From positions 1,798,001 to 1,862,000 of the forward strand of contig NZ_CP027732.1 of the NCBI RefSeq assembly GCF_003852235.1: DNA of 64,000 bases, read 5' to 3'. The notes under the pieces are model-generated. The model worked only from the letters and a program-made list of their open reading frames with translations. It was not told the DNA's origin and did no database searches. Shown piece by piece: positions 4,163-61,102 of the stretch; position 1 is the stretch's first letter, and every line of letters begins with the position of its first letter. The position numbers and the translations under genes are program-made. This DNA is from Pseudomonas sp. R4-35-07 (GTDB lineage: Bacteria; Pseudomonadota; Gammaproteobacteria; Pseudomonadales; Pseudomonadaceae).

Positions 4163-4774
4163 CGTGTTCCCCTTCAAGGACTTTCTATTAGATGGCTACT
4201 GTCTCAGAGTGAGCTAATAGCCGGCGTACATACTACCCATTACTTGTAGTAAGTAAACTGACGTAGCGCAAGAAGCAAAAAAAATTCTTGCACCGAATCT
4301 ATTTTGGCTAATCTTTTGAAGGTTTGTATAAAAACCCGCCAGATTTTTCCATTCTGCCGAAGATTGGATCCAGGCTGAAAGGGCCGGCCCGCATGCGTCC
4401 AGCGGTGTATATAGATGAAATTTTATATATCCAAGCCGGCACTTCCGTTGCGGCGGGTTGTCTCGCACCGGGCATCTTTTGCTCATCTAGAGGTGACTTT
4501 AACGGCGCCAGTTCGTCTCACGCTTCAACTGCCGGCAATGTTCAGGCGTTCGGTCACCGGGTGATCGAGGCCCTTTCTAATATTCCACCTGTGGCAGGGG
4601 ATGACGAGTGTGCCTTGAGCAATTGCTGGATTGGTGCCTACTATTCCCTACGTGCAGGTGTGAGCGCTCAGGGTTTTCTCGTTGTCGAAACCGGCACGGG
4701 GTGGCGTAGATGTTCCTTCGCCGGAAAAACATCGGTAAGGTAGGGTCAATATTCAAGACCCGCGAGGAGTAGTG
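4163..4774. other. 612-base intergenic region between oprI and the GNAT gene
   Basis: The oprI-proximal half (4200-4340) is AT-rich and should hold the oprI promoter. On the minus strand TTTACT and TAGTAT stand 16 bases apart near 4225-4255, but this is a weak guess. A second AT-rich block (TATATAGATGAAATTTTATATAT, about 4408-4430) lies between the genes. An open frame of 139 codons runs from 4324 to 4743 on the plus strand. It lacks a good ribosome-binding site and its N-terminal part lies in the AT-rich promoter-like DNA, so I do not call it a gene. Nothing else was identified. Confidence 0.5.
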
Positions 4775-58873: not shown

Positions 58874-58991
58874 TGATCGTTCCCTCGCTCCGCGTGGGAA
58901 TGCATCCCGTGACGCTCCGCGTCACCAGTGCGCAAAAAGCAGGACGCGGAGCGTCCAGGGTGGCATTCCCACGCAGAGCGTGGGAACGATC
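58874..58991. repeat. Hairpin repeat, GATCGTTCC...GGAACGATC type
   Basis: The outer arms ATCGTTCCCTCGCTCCGCGT and GCAGAGCGTGGGAACGAT are imperfect inverted copies, and GTGGGAATGC pairs with GCATTCCCAC. Inside, GACGCTCCGCGTC and GACGCGGAGCGTC form another inverted pair. The whole 118-base block could fold into one long hairpin. It is a dispersed P. fluorescens repeat type that differs from the REP units in the window. Confidence 0.8.
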
Positions 58992-58997
58992 CTATTA

Positions 58998-59273
58998 TCA
59001 AGCGACAGGACACTCCCGGTTCAACGCTTCATCCACCAATAACTGCGCAATTTCCATCATCTGCACGACCGCCAGCACCTGCTTGCGGCCTGAGCCATCC
59101 AGATGCTCGGCGCAGTCGTACGCACATACAGTCGCCGACCCCAGCATCTCGCTGGCATTGCTTAACGCCGCTTCGGTGCTAAGGCCGGGTCGTACGGTGA
59201 AGATGAGGTTGGGCGGGGTTTGTGGGATGTCATCCGGACGGGATGGTGGGGGATTTGGCGTAACCTTTTTCAT
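58998..59273 (-). CDS. DUF6124/DUF3077-type small protein
   Basis: This 91-residue protein starts MKKVTPNPPPSRPDD and has the family core of two helices: LSTEAALSNASEMLGSATVC and KQVLAVVQMMEIAQLLVDEA. Related proteins occur in several copies in fluorescent pseudomonads; their function is unknown. The ATG has GGAGA nine bases upstream, and an ATG five codons earlier would include that site. A long conserved-looking, highly structured leader precedes it. Confidence 0.85.
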   Translation of the reverse strand: MKKVTPNPPPSRPDDIPQTPPNLIFTVRPGLSTEAALSNASEMLGSATVCAYDCAEHLDGSGRKQVLAVVQMMEIAQLLVDEALNRECPVA

Positions 59274-59520
59274 GCAGTCAGTCTCCATTCAGTTGGAGCT
59301 CACCACATCCGCGACCAAGCAGAAGGGTGGCGAGCTGTACGCAGGTTGGTCGACCAGGGAATGGAAACCCGGCAGGGCCCTAAGCCCTCCCGCGCACAGC
59401 TCGCCATAACGCGAGCACAAGAATGCCGCTTGCGCGGCACTGTGCGCCATTCTAACCCAGGCGACCAAGCCTGATCGCTGATGAGCAGCGATTGCGAGAG
59501 GCTAACGGCGCCTTATAGCA
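59274..59520 (-). promoter_or_regulatory. Structured leader with alternative stems upstream of the DUF6124-type gene
   Basis: Read on the minus strand, the segments in order are as follows. First comes a 7-bp hairpin, ATCGCTG/CAGCGAT (59492-59474). Next is a TGCCGC-GCAA-GCGGCA hairpin with a GNRA-type tetraloop (59439-59424). A stem GCTCGC/GCGAGC (59416-59399) follows. Last is a 10-bp stem GGCGAGCTGT (59405-59396) with ACAGCTCGCC (59338-59329). The last two stems share GCGAGC, so they exclude each other. This is riboswitch- or antisense-RNA-like architecture; the promoter could be TATAAG at 59517-59512. Confidence 0.6.
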
Positions 59521-59538
59521 ACTGCAAGCCACGCAGAT

Positions 59539-59710: not shown

Positions 59711-59750
59711 TGGGCCAATGAGTGGGAAAACAAGCAAAGAGGGTGTGGTG

Positions 59751-60317
59751 ATGGCAGGCAGGTTGATCTATCTCATCGGGCCTTCCGGTTCGGGCAAGGA
59801 CAGCCTGCTCGAGGCCGCACGCCCAGGGTTGGCCGAGCACGGTTGCCGCATTGTGCGCCGCGTCATCACCCGGTCTGCGGAAGCGGTGGGTGAAGCGGCG
59901 CTGGGAGTGAGCCCGGCGCAGTTTGCGGCGATGCAGGCGCAAGGCGAATTTGCCCTCAGTTGGCAGGCCAATGGGTTGTCCTACGGCATTCCCAAGCAGA
60001 TCGATGAGTGGCTGGCGGCTGGGGAGGACGTGCTGGTCAACGGCTCGCGCGCGCACCTGGCGCAAACCCGTGAGCGTTATCCGACGTTGCTGGTGTTGTT
60101 GCTGACGGTCGATCAGGTGGTGTTGCGCCAGCGTTTGATCGCACGCGCACGTGAGTCATTGGCCGATATTGAGGAACGCCTGGCACGCAACGTGCGGTTC
60201 ACCGAGGAACTGATCACCGCCAATGGCGAAGGGTTATTCGTGTTGGATAATTCCGGCCCGTTGGAACATACGGTCGAGCGCTTGCTCTGCTGCCTGGCCC
60301 ACGGGCACTCGGCCTGA
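59751..60317 (+). CDS. phnN: Ribose 1,5-bisphosphate phosphokinase PhnN
   Basis: This 188-residue P-loop kinase makes phosphoribosyl pyrophosphate from ribose 1,5-bisphosphate, the last step that links carbon-phosphorus lyase products to PRPP. It is related to guanylate kinase: P-loop LIGPSGSGKDSLL (about residues 8-20), RRVITRSA, and the lid-side ERLARNVRF. The ATG has AGAGGG nine bases upstream. No other phn gene lies next to it in this window, so it is an orphan here. Confidence 0.9.
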   Translation: MAGRLIYLIGPSGSGKDSLLEAARPGLAEHGCRIVRRVITRSAEAVGEAALGVSPAQFAAMQAQGEFALSWQANGLSYGIPKQIDEWLAAGEDVLVNGSRAHLAQTRERYPTLLVLLLTVDQVVLRQRLIARARESLADIEERLARNVRFTEELITANGEGLFVLDNSGPLEHTVERLLCCLAHGHSA

Positions 60318-60512: not shown

Positions 60513-60686
60513 TTGATCAAAGAGCTGCAAGAGGCGGGTTGGGTGCTGGATCGTGTCACCGGCAGCCATCACATTTTTACCCACCGCTATAACCCGTACA
60601 CGATCCCGGTGCCTCATCCGAAGAAAGATCTTCCCTTGGGCACCGTCAGAAGCATCAGGAAACGCGCCGGGCTGTTTCAGTTTTAA
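60513..60686 (+). CDS. hicA: HicA-type mRNA interferase toxin, start codon abnormal
   Basis: The frame encodes the HicA fold almost completely: LIKELQEAGWVLDRVTGSHH with the catalytic His in GSHH, then YTIPVPHPKKDLPLGTVRSI and a short C-terminus KRAGLFQF. A perfect AAGGAGG site lies at 60486-60492, but at the expected start (60498-60500, before CAA AGC AGG) the codon is GGG. No ATG, GTG or TTG occurs in frame from the preceding stop (60459) to the TTG at 60513. Initiation at that TTG is 20 bases from the ribosome-binding site, so the toxin may be poorly made or dead. Confidence 0.75.
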   Translation: MIKELQEAGWVLDRVTGSHHIFTHRYNPYTIPVPHPKKDLPLGTVRSIRKRAGLFQF

Positions 60687-60697
60687 GGAGAGCATGC

Positions 60698-61102
60698 ATG
60701 CAATACCCAATCTGTATCGAATGGGGCGATGACTTTACCGCCACCGGTATCCAGATCCCCGATATTCCGGGCGCTGTCACCGCTGGGGACAGTTTTGAAG
60801 AGGCGTATAACGCGGCCGTGGAGGTTGCGCACATCATGCTGCAGGAGATCGCCGCCGAGGGCGGAGTGATTCCGATGCCAACCTCGGTCGCCAATCATCA
60901 CGCCCATGAAGACTACGCCGGCATGGGCTGGGGCATGTTGGAGCTGGATATCTCGCCCTATCTGGGCAAGACCGAGAAGGTCAACGTGACCTTGCCCGGC
61001 TATGTGATCCAACGCATCGACCGTTACGTGCGCGAGCATAAAGTCAAAAGCCGCTCGTCATTTCTGGCGGACGCGGCTTTGGAGAAGTTGGTGCGTTCTT
61101 AA
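60698..61102 (+). CDS. hicB: HicB-type antitoxin
   Basis: This 134-residue antitoxin neutralises HicA and represses the operon. The N-terminal HicB fold reads YPICIEWGDDFTATGIQIPDIPG and GDSFEEAYNAAVEVAHIML. The C-terminal ribbon-helix-helix (about 92-134) is KVNVTLPGYVIQRIDRYVRE and SRSSFLADAALEKL. AAGGAG eight bases upstream overlaps the hicA stop. Its end overlaps the converging MFS gene by four bases. Confidence 0.93.
   Translation: MQYPICIEWGDDFTATGIQIPDIPGAVTAGDSFEEAYNAAVEVAHIMLQEIAAEGGVIPMPTSVANHHAHEDYAGMGWGMLELDISPYLGKTEKVNVTLPGYVIQRIDRYVREHKVKSRSSFLADAALEKLVRS

Follow-up and report, generated by a model that had tools for sequence, protein, structure and literature searches.

C4 antisense RNAs belong to the phages P1 and P7 (PMC5320573, PMC12197685, in their available sections). 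As far as the accessible parts of the literature describe them, these RNAs (Rfam family RF01695) share a characteristic fold and lie between two sets of target sites in the order a1b1-C4-a2b2, the upstream copy of the sites being collected in the family c4-a1b1 (RF03163; Weinberg et al. 2010, PMC2864571). Their b' loop covers the ribosome-binding site, and the loops set the specificity, as in the heteroimmunity of P1 and P7. According to the available sections, the C4 motif has already been listed for Proteobacteria and phages (PMC2864571), with the Pseudomonadales included (PMC5320573). In Acinetobacter baumannii, the Group 1 C4-like sRNAs have the C4 fold and occur in multiple copies in one genome; the group has 21 members with signs of processing in RNA-seq, the a' loop is its sole variable region, and no target is identified in the section cited (PMC5320573). 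At the isrK locus of Salmonella Gifsy-1, a terminated short RNA is followed by a read-through RNA, and the downstream gene is expressed only once the short RNA has acted in trans, as the accessible text has it (PMC4825925).

Here we analysed a window of 64,000 nt from Pseudomonas sp. R4-35-07 (contig NZ_CP027732.1, positions 1,798,001 to 1,862,000), in which the leader of a DUF6124 gene resembles the P1/P7 locus in fold, in the order of its elements and in a b' loop that matches the ribosome-binding site. Unlike P1 and P7, Pseudomonas has up to at least 54 C4s per genome, many of them in one-contig genomes, the first gene of the modules mostly belongs to the DUF6124/DUF3077 group instead of icd-ant, and nearly every copy within a genome has its own b' loop. 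In A. baumannii Group 1 only a' varies, whereas in Pseudomonas the variation extends to both a' and b', and it is the adjoining downstream gene that b' matches. The window locus adds a member to RF01695; what is new is the array of self-addressed C4 modules over a DUF6124-type protein family. Among the literature matches listed, from a search that covered few subscription journals, no paper links C4 with DUF6124 or DUF3077.

Results

The leader of the DUF6124 gene has the sequence and fold of a C4 RNA

All elements of the locus lie on the minus strand, in a putative transcription unit of about 530 nt (59527-58998) that adjoins phnN on the other strand (59718-60317). It begins with a -35-like TTGCAG (59522..59527) and, after a spacer of 17 nt, a -10-like TAGCCT (59499..59504), from which the RNA would start near 59493. 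A c4-a1b1 element, that is, the upstream copy of the C4 target sites, was placed at 59454..59505 by the covariance model, with a hairpin at 59492-59474; its score (41.8 bits, E 4e-9) is just under the gathering score of 46.7, and its place and order are right. The a1 site GCTTGGTCGC (59461..59470) complements the a' segment of C4 with -15.8 kcal/mol including flanks, and the b1 site AGAATGG (59447..59453) is a partial complement of the b' loop (-7.6 kcal/mol). A terminator-like hairpin follows at 59419..59440, with the perfect 6-bp stem and GCAA loop already pointed out in an earlier note on this DNA, and then TTCTT. Its position matches the isrK terminator; the Rfam model of isrK (RF01394) scores 36.2 bits over 59489-59419 where its cut-off asks for 50, and in this the window differs from isrK proper.

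The C4 RNA itself spans 59323..59411 and matches RF01695 over model positions 1-87 of 87 with 65 bits, above the gathering cut-off of 45. The core of the 5' arm of its P1 stem, GGCGAGCTGT (59396..59405), and that of the 3' arm, ACAGCTCGCC (59329..59338), are supported by model fold, covariation and sequence alike; this P1 is the long stem of the earlier note, and the hairpin AGGGC-TTAGG-GCCCT nested in it (AGGGCTTAGGGCCCT, 59374..59388) is P2. The b' loop GGTTTCCATTCCC (59357..59369) forms a duplex of -15.3 kcal/mol with the b2 site GAATGGAGA (59282..59290), which contains the Shine-Dalgarno sequence and lies 9-17 nt upstream of the start codon. The a' segment GGTCGACCAACC (59344..59355) complements a1 as well as a2, the latter being the identical 10-mer directly 3' of C4 (59311..59320; -11.2 kcal/mol). 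The DUF6124 gene of 91 aa closes the unit (58998..59273; PF19619, 74.9 bits). The order of promoter-like site, a1b1, hairpin, C4 with a' and b', a2 and b2 is that of phage P1, and, judged by its sequence, the leader is a C4 antisense RNA of the P1/P7 type.

Every sequence that the earlier note had placed here (GCTCGC at 59416-59411, GCGAGC at 59404-59399, the two P1 arm cores and the P2 hairpin) is found on the minus strand where it was said to be. Two features had been overlooked, the complementarity of the b' loop to the Shine-Dalgarno sequence and the a'-complementary 10-mer on both sides of C4. The note had also suggested an immunity-type antisense RNA like those of P4-type phages, and the antisense RNA of C4 type was borne out while the P4 origin was not, as C4 is of the P1/P7 type. 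The CI RNA of P4 likewise confers phage immunity by a small structured RNA, but it is of a different family and acts by transcription termination; the Rfam scan, whose library may not include the CI family, listed no such match, and this candidate was dropped.

A 230-nt piece of the leader (59493-59264) folds with -113.6 kcal/mol, while its 200 dinucleotide shuffles lie at -88.7 kcal/mol (sd 4.8), giving a z of -5.2. When the 247-nt stretch was shuffled by mononucleotides 2000 times, 46 of the shuffles contained a perfect inverted repeat of 10 bp within 100 nt. Covariation was assessed on 58 diverse C4s aligned by sequence alone, with L161 excluded from the source set. The earlier note had staked its stems on covariation among homologous leaders, and for the C4 structure this covariation is strong: the three stems of the Rfam structure are paired in 95.3% of the cells, 20 of the 27 pairs changed on both sides, and none of 500 shuffles was as good on any measure. 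Changes on both sides occurred in 14 of 17 pairs of the long stem and in all 5 pairs of P2; the weakest stem is P3, with 86.9% pairing and two-sided changes in a single pair out of 5. When the partner columns were slid by 1-3 positions, pairing fell to 29-42%. At its 5' base, P1 begins with a GG whose two positions are conserved in 58 and 57 of the 58 C4s, respectively.

The b' loops match the start regions of their own genes

For a comparison across modules, the C4 at a contig end (L050) was removed from a set of 168 rows; of the 167 that stayed in, 5 lacked a 45-aa frame with its start 15-170 nt downstream, which left 162 modules. Gene starts were assigned by rule and are wrong in some modules with a short first frame (e.g. 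L098, L100, L038), and the pairing counts are therefore conservative. Duplex energies of b' against the start region (-24 to +6) were computed for all pairs within each of four genomes, namely the source genome (G000, n = 14), G049 (n = 51), G010 (n = 32) and G036 (n = 40), and compared to 2000 permutations, which treat the modules as independent and ignore kinship. In each genome the summed energy of own pairs was below all 2000 permutations, with -187.5 compared to a permuted -118.8 (sd 9.4) in G000, -615.2 to -344.4 (sd 15.6) in G049, -454.7 to -233.0 (sd 13.7) in G010 and -556.9 to -287.4 (sd 15.1) in G036. The own start region was the best partner for 11/14, 19/51, 25/32 and 27/40 loops in the same order of genomes. 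The window loop ranks its own start region first of 14; three of the 14 source-genome modules (L003, L005, L006) have a better partner than their own, which speaks against the pairing model.

The centre of the pairing site lies at a median of -12 from the start codon and within -25..+3 in 146 of the 162 modules. A run of at least 7 pairs is formed with the own loop in 140 of 162 modules, compared to 1161 of 5284 non-own pairs. As own pairing persists in start regions that have no Shine-Dalgarno core (30/38 own compared to 237/1415 non-own pairs with such a run), the b' match is more than an anti-Shine-Dalgarno sequence. The upstream sites behave alike: both loop segments, b' with b1 and a' with a1, pair with the upstream region better than in all permutations in all four genomes. 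For a' against the downstream leader (a2) this holds in G049 and G036, whereas in G000 and G010 the match is weakly above chance, with 66 and 34 of 2000 permutations as good, which counts against this part of the model.

Seen from the targets, the own C4 outbinds every other C4 of the genome for 8/14, 19/51, 21/32 and 22/40 of them (G000, G049, G010, G036), while by this crude energy another C4 of the same genome binds at least equally well to 6/14, 32/51, 11/32 and 18/40. Cross-talk between C4s is thus possible. At 18 loci of other genera, taken from 26 fetched and in part sharing a genome, the best b' duplex within 110 nt fell between +31 and +44, where the next gene starts, as scored without a shuffle control.

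Near-identical proteins stand behind different loops

Distinct b' loops made up 14/14, 51/51, 31/32 and 39/40 of the loops in G000, G049, G010 and G036. Among 97 pairs of DUF6124-group proteins from the same genome with at least 80% identity, the b' loop is common to 2 pairs and the a' segment to 18; at 90% identity or more, 1 of 35 pairs has the b' loop in common. In 8 pairs of equal length with dS below 0.35, the DNA of the frames is 90-98% identical and that of the C4s 65-82%, and none of the 8 pairs has a common loop. Either the RNA part evolves faster or it is swapped by recombination. The target proteins of P1 and P7 are near-identical, too. The immunity difference between these phages comes down to changes of a few bases in C4, according to the available sections of PMC5320573 and PMC12197685.

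Upstream elements resemble a promoter, a terminator and isrK

The generic promoter scan of the window (threshold 9/12) found no promoter at the locus, and the generic terminator scan did not list the GCAA hairpin; a family-wise scan, run on those 132 of the 162 modules whose a1b1 hairpin is clear, found both a promoter-like and a terminator-like site. In the 45 nt upstream of this hairpin, the best -35/-10 pair scored 6.6/12 on average compared to 2.3 in mononucleotide shuffles. A terminator-like site between a1b1 and C4 is present in 41 of the 132 modules, the window copy included, compared to 12.9 in mononucleotide shuffles; that this is only about a third of the modules counts against a general terminator.

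At E <= 0.1, c4-a1b1 matches accompany all 14 modules of the source genome (3 over the cut-off), and isrK matches, 3 of which exceed the cut-off, lie upstream of C4 at 16 of the 18 loci from other genera. Wherever both are listed, the isrK and a1b1 matches overlap. In Gifsy-1, short IsrK in trans switches on translation of the longer read-through RNA, as described in the accessible text of PMC4825925; that text does not mention C4 antisense, C4 RNA, immC or phage P1. By analogy, the simplest reading would be that isrK is a1b1 plus terminator and acts by occupying C4, a link that we infer here and that would join the Rfam families isrK, c4-a1b1 and C4 as one device.

C4 modules are abundant in Pseudomonas

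The genome of Pseudomonas sp. R4-35-07 has 14 C4s over the cut-off. Across 59 genomes of the genus Pseudomonas there are at least 1000 C4 matches at E <= 0.001, with a median of at least 14 and a maximum of at least 54 per genome and none in 5 genomes; as at most 61 candidates per genome were scored here and at most 15 in the class-wide survey, both under stricter filters, the counts are lower bounds. The numbers of DUF6124 and C4 per genome are correlated (Spearman 0.88). In the four one-contig genomes, a DUF6124 hit follows within 450 nt, on the same strand, for 106 of the 142 C4s that exceed the cut-off. Conversely, a C4 precedes 106 of 123 DUF6124 rows in this way, where the chance rate is about 0.0014 per gene. 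The other 17 rows include 2 second genes of a tandem behind C4 and the 2 halves of one frameshifted gene (DUF6124 counts are rows, and L025 contributes two).

Among 274 genomes of the class, about one per genus, 18 have C4, with 14 copies in the source genome and 1 to 6 in each of the other 17; DUF6124 is present in the source genome alone. As the other genomes with C4 have few copies and no DUF6124, the expansion of C4 modules looks like a Pseudomonas matter. Within a 1.5-Mb genome of another family, which has six C4s in total, four C4s stand in tandem within 1.4 kb (L289:194-1586).

The genes behind C4 encode small proteins or antirepressors

Single-linkage clustering placed 122 of the 162 module proteins in one group, which holds the DUF6124/DUF3077 proteins. 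A second group of small proteins has 17 members and a group of about 52 aa has 11, while 7 and 2 proteins are in groups whose representatives have a Bro-N (antirepressor) and a QslA domain, respectively, the domain scan being based on one representative for each of the five largest groups; 3 proteins are single and partly resemble broken frames. In other genera, 3 of 7 first genes behind C4 encode AntA, Rha or Bro-N proteins, where the 7 were picked from the 18 loci and three of them for their antirepressor look. The slot behind C4 therefore holds either antirepressors or small proteins. In one source-genome module (L005:838-1365, minus), a second frame with a QslA domain overlaps a first frame of about 28 aa by eye, resembling the coupling of icd-ant or orf45-anrP; a radC RNA (RF01754) lies near the same module (L005:313-456, minus).

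The median dN/dS of the window DUF6124 gene is 0.09 against 17 relatives, hand-picked from 39 loci with orthologues and paralogues mixed and aligned without gaps; on this measure the protein is under purifying selection. In the predicted structure, two helices form a hairpin and the N-terminus, which is rich in Pro, is loose (pLDDT 87.9, pTM 0.63). A structure search with this model gave 174 PDB matches at E <= 10, none of the best 50 of these 174 with E <= 0.001, and therefore no function follows from the fold; PADLOC gave no match for the window protein.

In four genomes, a DUF6124 gene that has no C4 stands head to head with a regulator gene (L348:6396-7511, L349, L350, L351), in surroundings that look alike by eye and contain leucine-degradation-like genes. 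The three regulators scanned have HTH_3 and Peptidase S24 domains and the fourth is similar by eye, and a fifth such DUF6124 gene (L352) is near an HTH protein. DUF6124 genes seem to be controlled by either C4 or a CI/LexA-like repressor, as is the case with phage antirepressor genes. On account of these repressor neighbours and of the antirepressors behind other C4s, our best guess, held with low confidence, is that DUF6124 may be an antirepressor-like regulator. The only paper found to name DUF6124 or DUF3077, again from a search with few subscription journals, is PMC9630843, whose available part reports on a strain of P. putida KT2440 that was evolved for furfural tolerance and in which the frame of a DUF3077 pseudogene was restored.

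Discussion

Family membership, structure, layout and the specific pairing of loops with their own genes recur across many modules. We consider it highly probable that the window locus works as a unit of the P1 immC type, with one promoter, a C4 that pairs with a2 and b2 and blocks DUF6124, and a1b1 as a decoy. One promoter would give rise to an RNA carrying a1b1, the terminator-like hairpin, C4, a2, b2 with its Shine-Dalgarno sequence and the DUF6124 frame, in this order. C4 would then be excised from the leader, by RNase P if the analogy holds, and its b' loop and a' segment would pair in trans with b2 and a2 of like mRNAs, so that no ribosome could start on DUF6124. A short a1b1 RNA with the same sites would probably titrate C4, on the model of IsrK in the Gifsy-1 prophage. 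The likeliest mechanism is that translation of DUF6124 is blocked by C4 after its excision from the leader, with the a1b1 RNA titrating C4. Weighing against the unit as a whole are the scores of a1b1 and isrK in the window, both under their cut-offs, the 17 of 123 DUF6124 rows that no C4 precedes, and a relative of the window gene (L243, see below) that is intact and has no C4. The product, a small helical protein kept by selection, would probably, though we say so with little conviction, be an antirepressor-like regulator.

Across the 162 modules, the likely target of a C4 in bacterial genomes becomes readable from the sequence as the gene directly behind it, through a loop that tracks the ribosome-binding site, and the DUF6124/DUF3077 family gains a regulatory logic. 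With dozens of antisense pairs per cell, such genomes offer a natural set in which to follow divergence and cross-talk of RNA immunity specificities.

This pairing mechanism is compatible with more than one purpose of the modules. They may be mobile genes for immunity or superinfection control, a possibility to be taken seriously although we do not favour it: a resident C4 would silence the genes of an incoming phage where these have the same sites, and DUF6124 would be a regulator on the phage side, for which P1 and P7 are a precedent. Some modules do sit in prophages. IMG/VR holds 55 loci with DUF6124, and all 17 that were scanned have C4, directly upstream of the gene in 16 of them and about 550 nt from it in L320. 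In L300, the module lies between tail fibre assembly and tail sheath genes, an interval that we take to be a known cargo place in P2-like phages, and in L293:7-4360 it lies beside Mu-like prophage genes, with an Mrr-type nuclease and a protein matching part of Dsr2 on the other side.

The window copy, on the other hand, does not fit this picture well. By eye, no phage genes are among the frames of its surroundings (56.5-62.5 kb), its putative target is a DUF6124 gene and not a phage antirepressor operon, and a tblastn search of 50,697 phage records gave no match to its DUF6124 protein. A phage origin of this copy was therefore dropped. The DUF6124 target and the absence of flanking phage genes limit any claim of a phage immunity locus here, while membership in RF01695 is unaffected. 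The window protein has a weak match (1.9e-6) to a PHROG that has no assigned function. A Bro-N query gave no match in the viral contigs.

A wider picture can be drawn, which, taken as a whole, we regard as less likely than not. Many Pseudomonas chromosomes would carry dozens of copies of DUF6124/DUF3077 and kin, each under its own C4, with loop and ribosome-binding site co-changing so fast that even 99%-identical proteins of one genome answer to different RNAs. Modules would spread as prophage cargo, and a newcomer with a known address would be silenced at once, in an immunity-like manner. The proteins would be antirepressor-like regulators that act in trans on CI/LexA-like repressors and link the cell's state to the prophages or pyocins that reside in it.

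It is unlikely that the modules are type I toxin-antitoxin systems, in which C4 would be the RNA antitoxin, DUF6124 the toxin and the copies would persist by addiction. This idea is likewise compatible with the pairing mechanism and differs on the purpose of the gene. The combination of a small gene with an antisense RNA directed at it, the many copies that a genome has and the diversification of loops from copy to copy all suit it, as do the five C4s that have no downstream frame and the C4-less copy L025, whose gene is frameshifted into two DUF6124 rows in different frames. A strong toxin, however, should forbid intact genes that have lost their C4. L243, a close relative at apparently the same phnN-flanked place, has an intact gene and no C4 in the stretch read, with a1b1 and terminator retained upstream (by eye), and several further C4-less DUF6124 genes are also intact by eye; an addictive toxin is therefore disfavoured. 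Purifying selection on DUF6124 points in the same direction. Type I toxins are typically small membrane peptides, unlike the helical hairpin predicted for DUF6124. The leaders of four C4-less DUF6124 genes (L221, L223, L225, L227) seem by eye to keep an a1b1-like stretch, and these genes could be trans targets of other C4s.

Very improbable, finally, is a cis-acting switch of the kind proposed in the earlier note, by which the leader would flip between a stem with 59416-59411 and the long stem and thereby control DUF6124 within the same RNA; we take a ligand or temperature as its signal. Both stems can form in the window sequence and the leader folds strongly, but of these two exclusive stems the long one, which covaries, belongs to a known antisense family as its P1. 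A stem switch would also have no need of a variable loop that follows the start region of the gene behind it. The alternative stem is not conserved, being 52% paired compared to 51% in shuffles over the 58 C4s, and because it pairs at shuffle level the two-stem switch is not supported and was dropped. The covariation score of the alternative stem was matched by 3 of 500 shuffles, and slid versions come close to it (0.155 compared to 0.168).

Elsewhere in the window, the Pseudomonas sRNA P14 (RF01669) matches at 4200-4342 on the minus strand with 93.6 bits. A HicA toxin and HicB-like antitoxin pair lies at 60513-61099 on the plus strand, near phnN. Immediately 3' of the DUF6124 gene, at 58900-58990, there are inverted repeats that we call REP-like by eye, with 83% over 24 nt and a perfect 9-bp hairpin.
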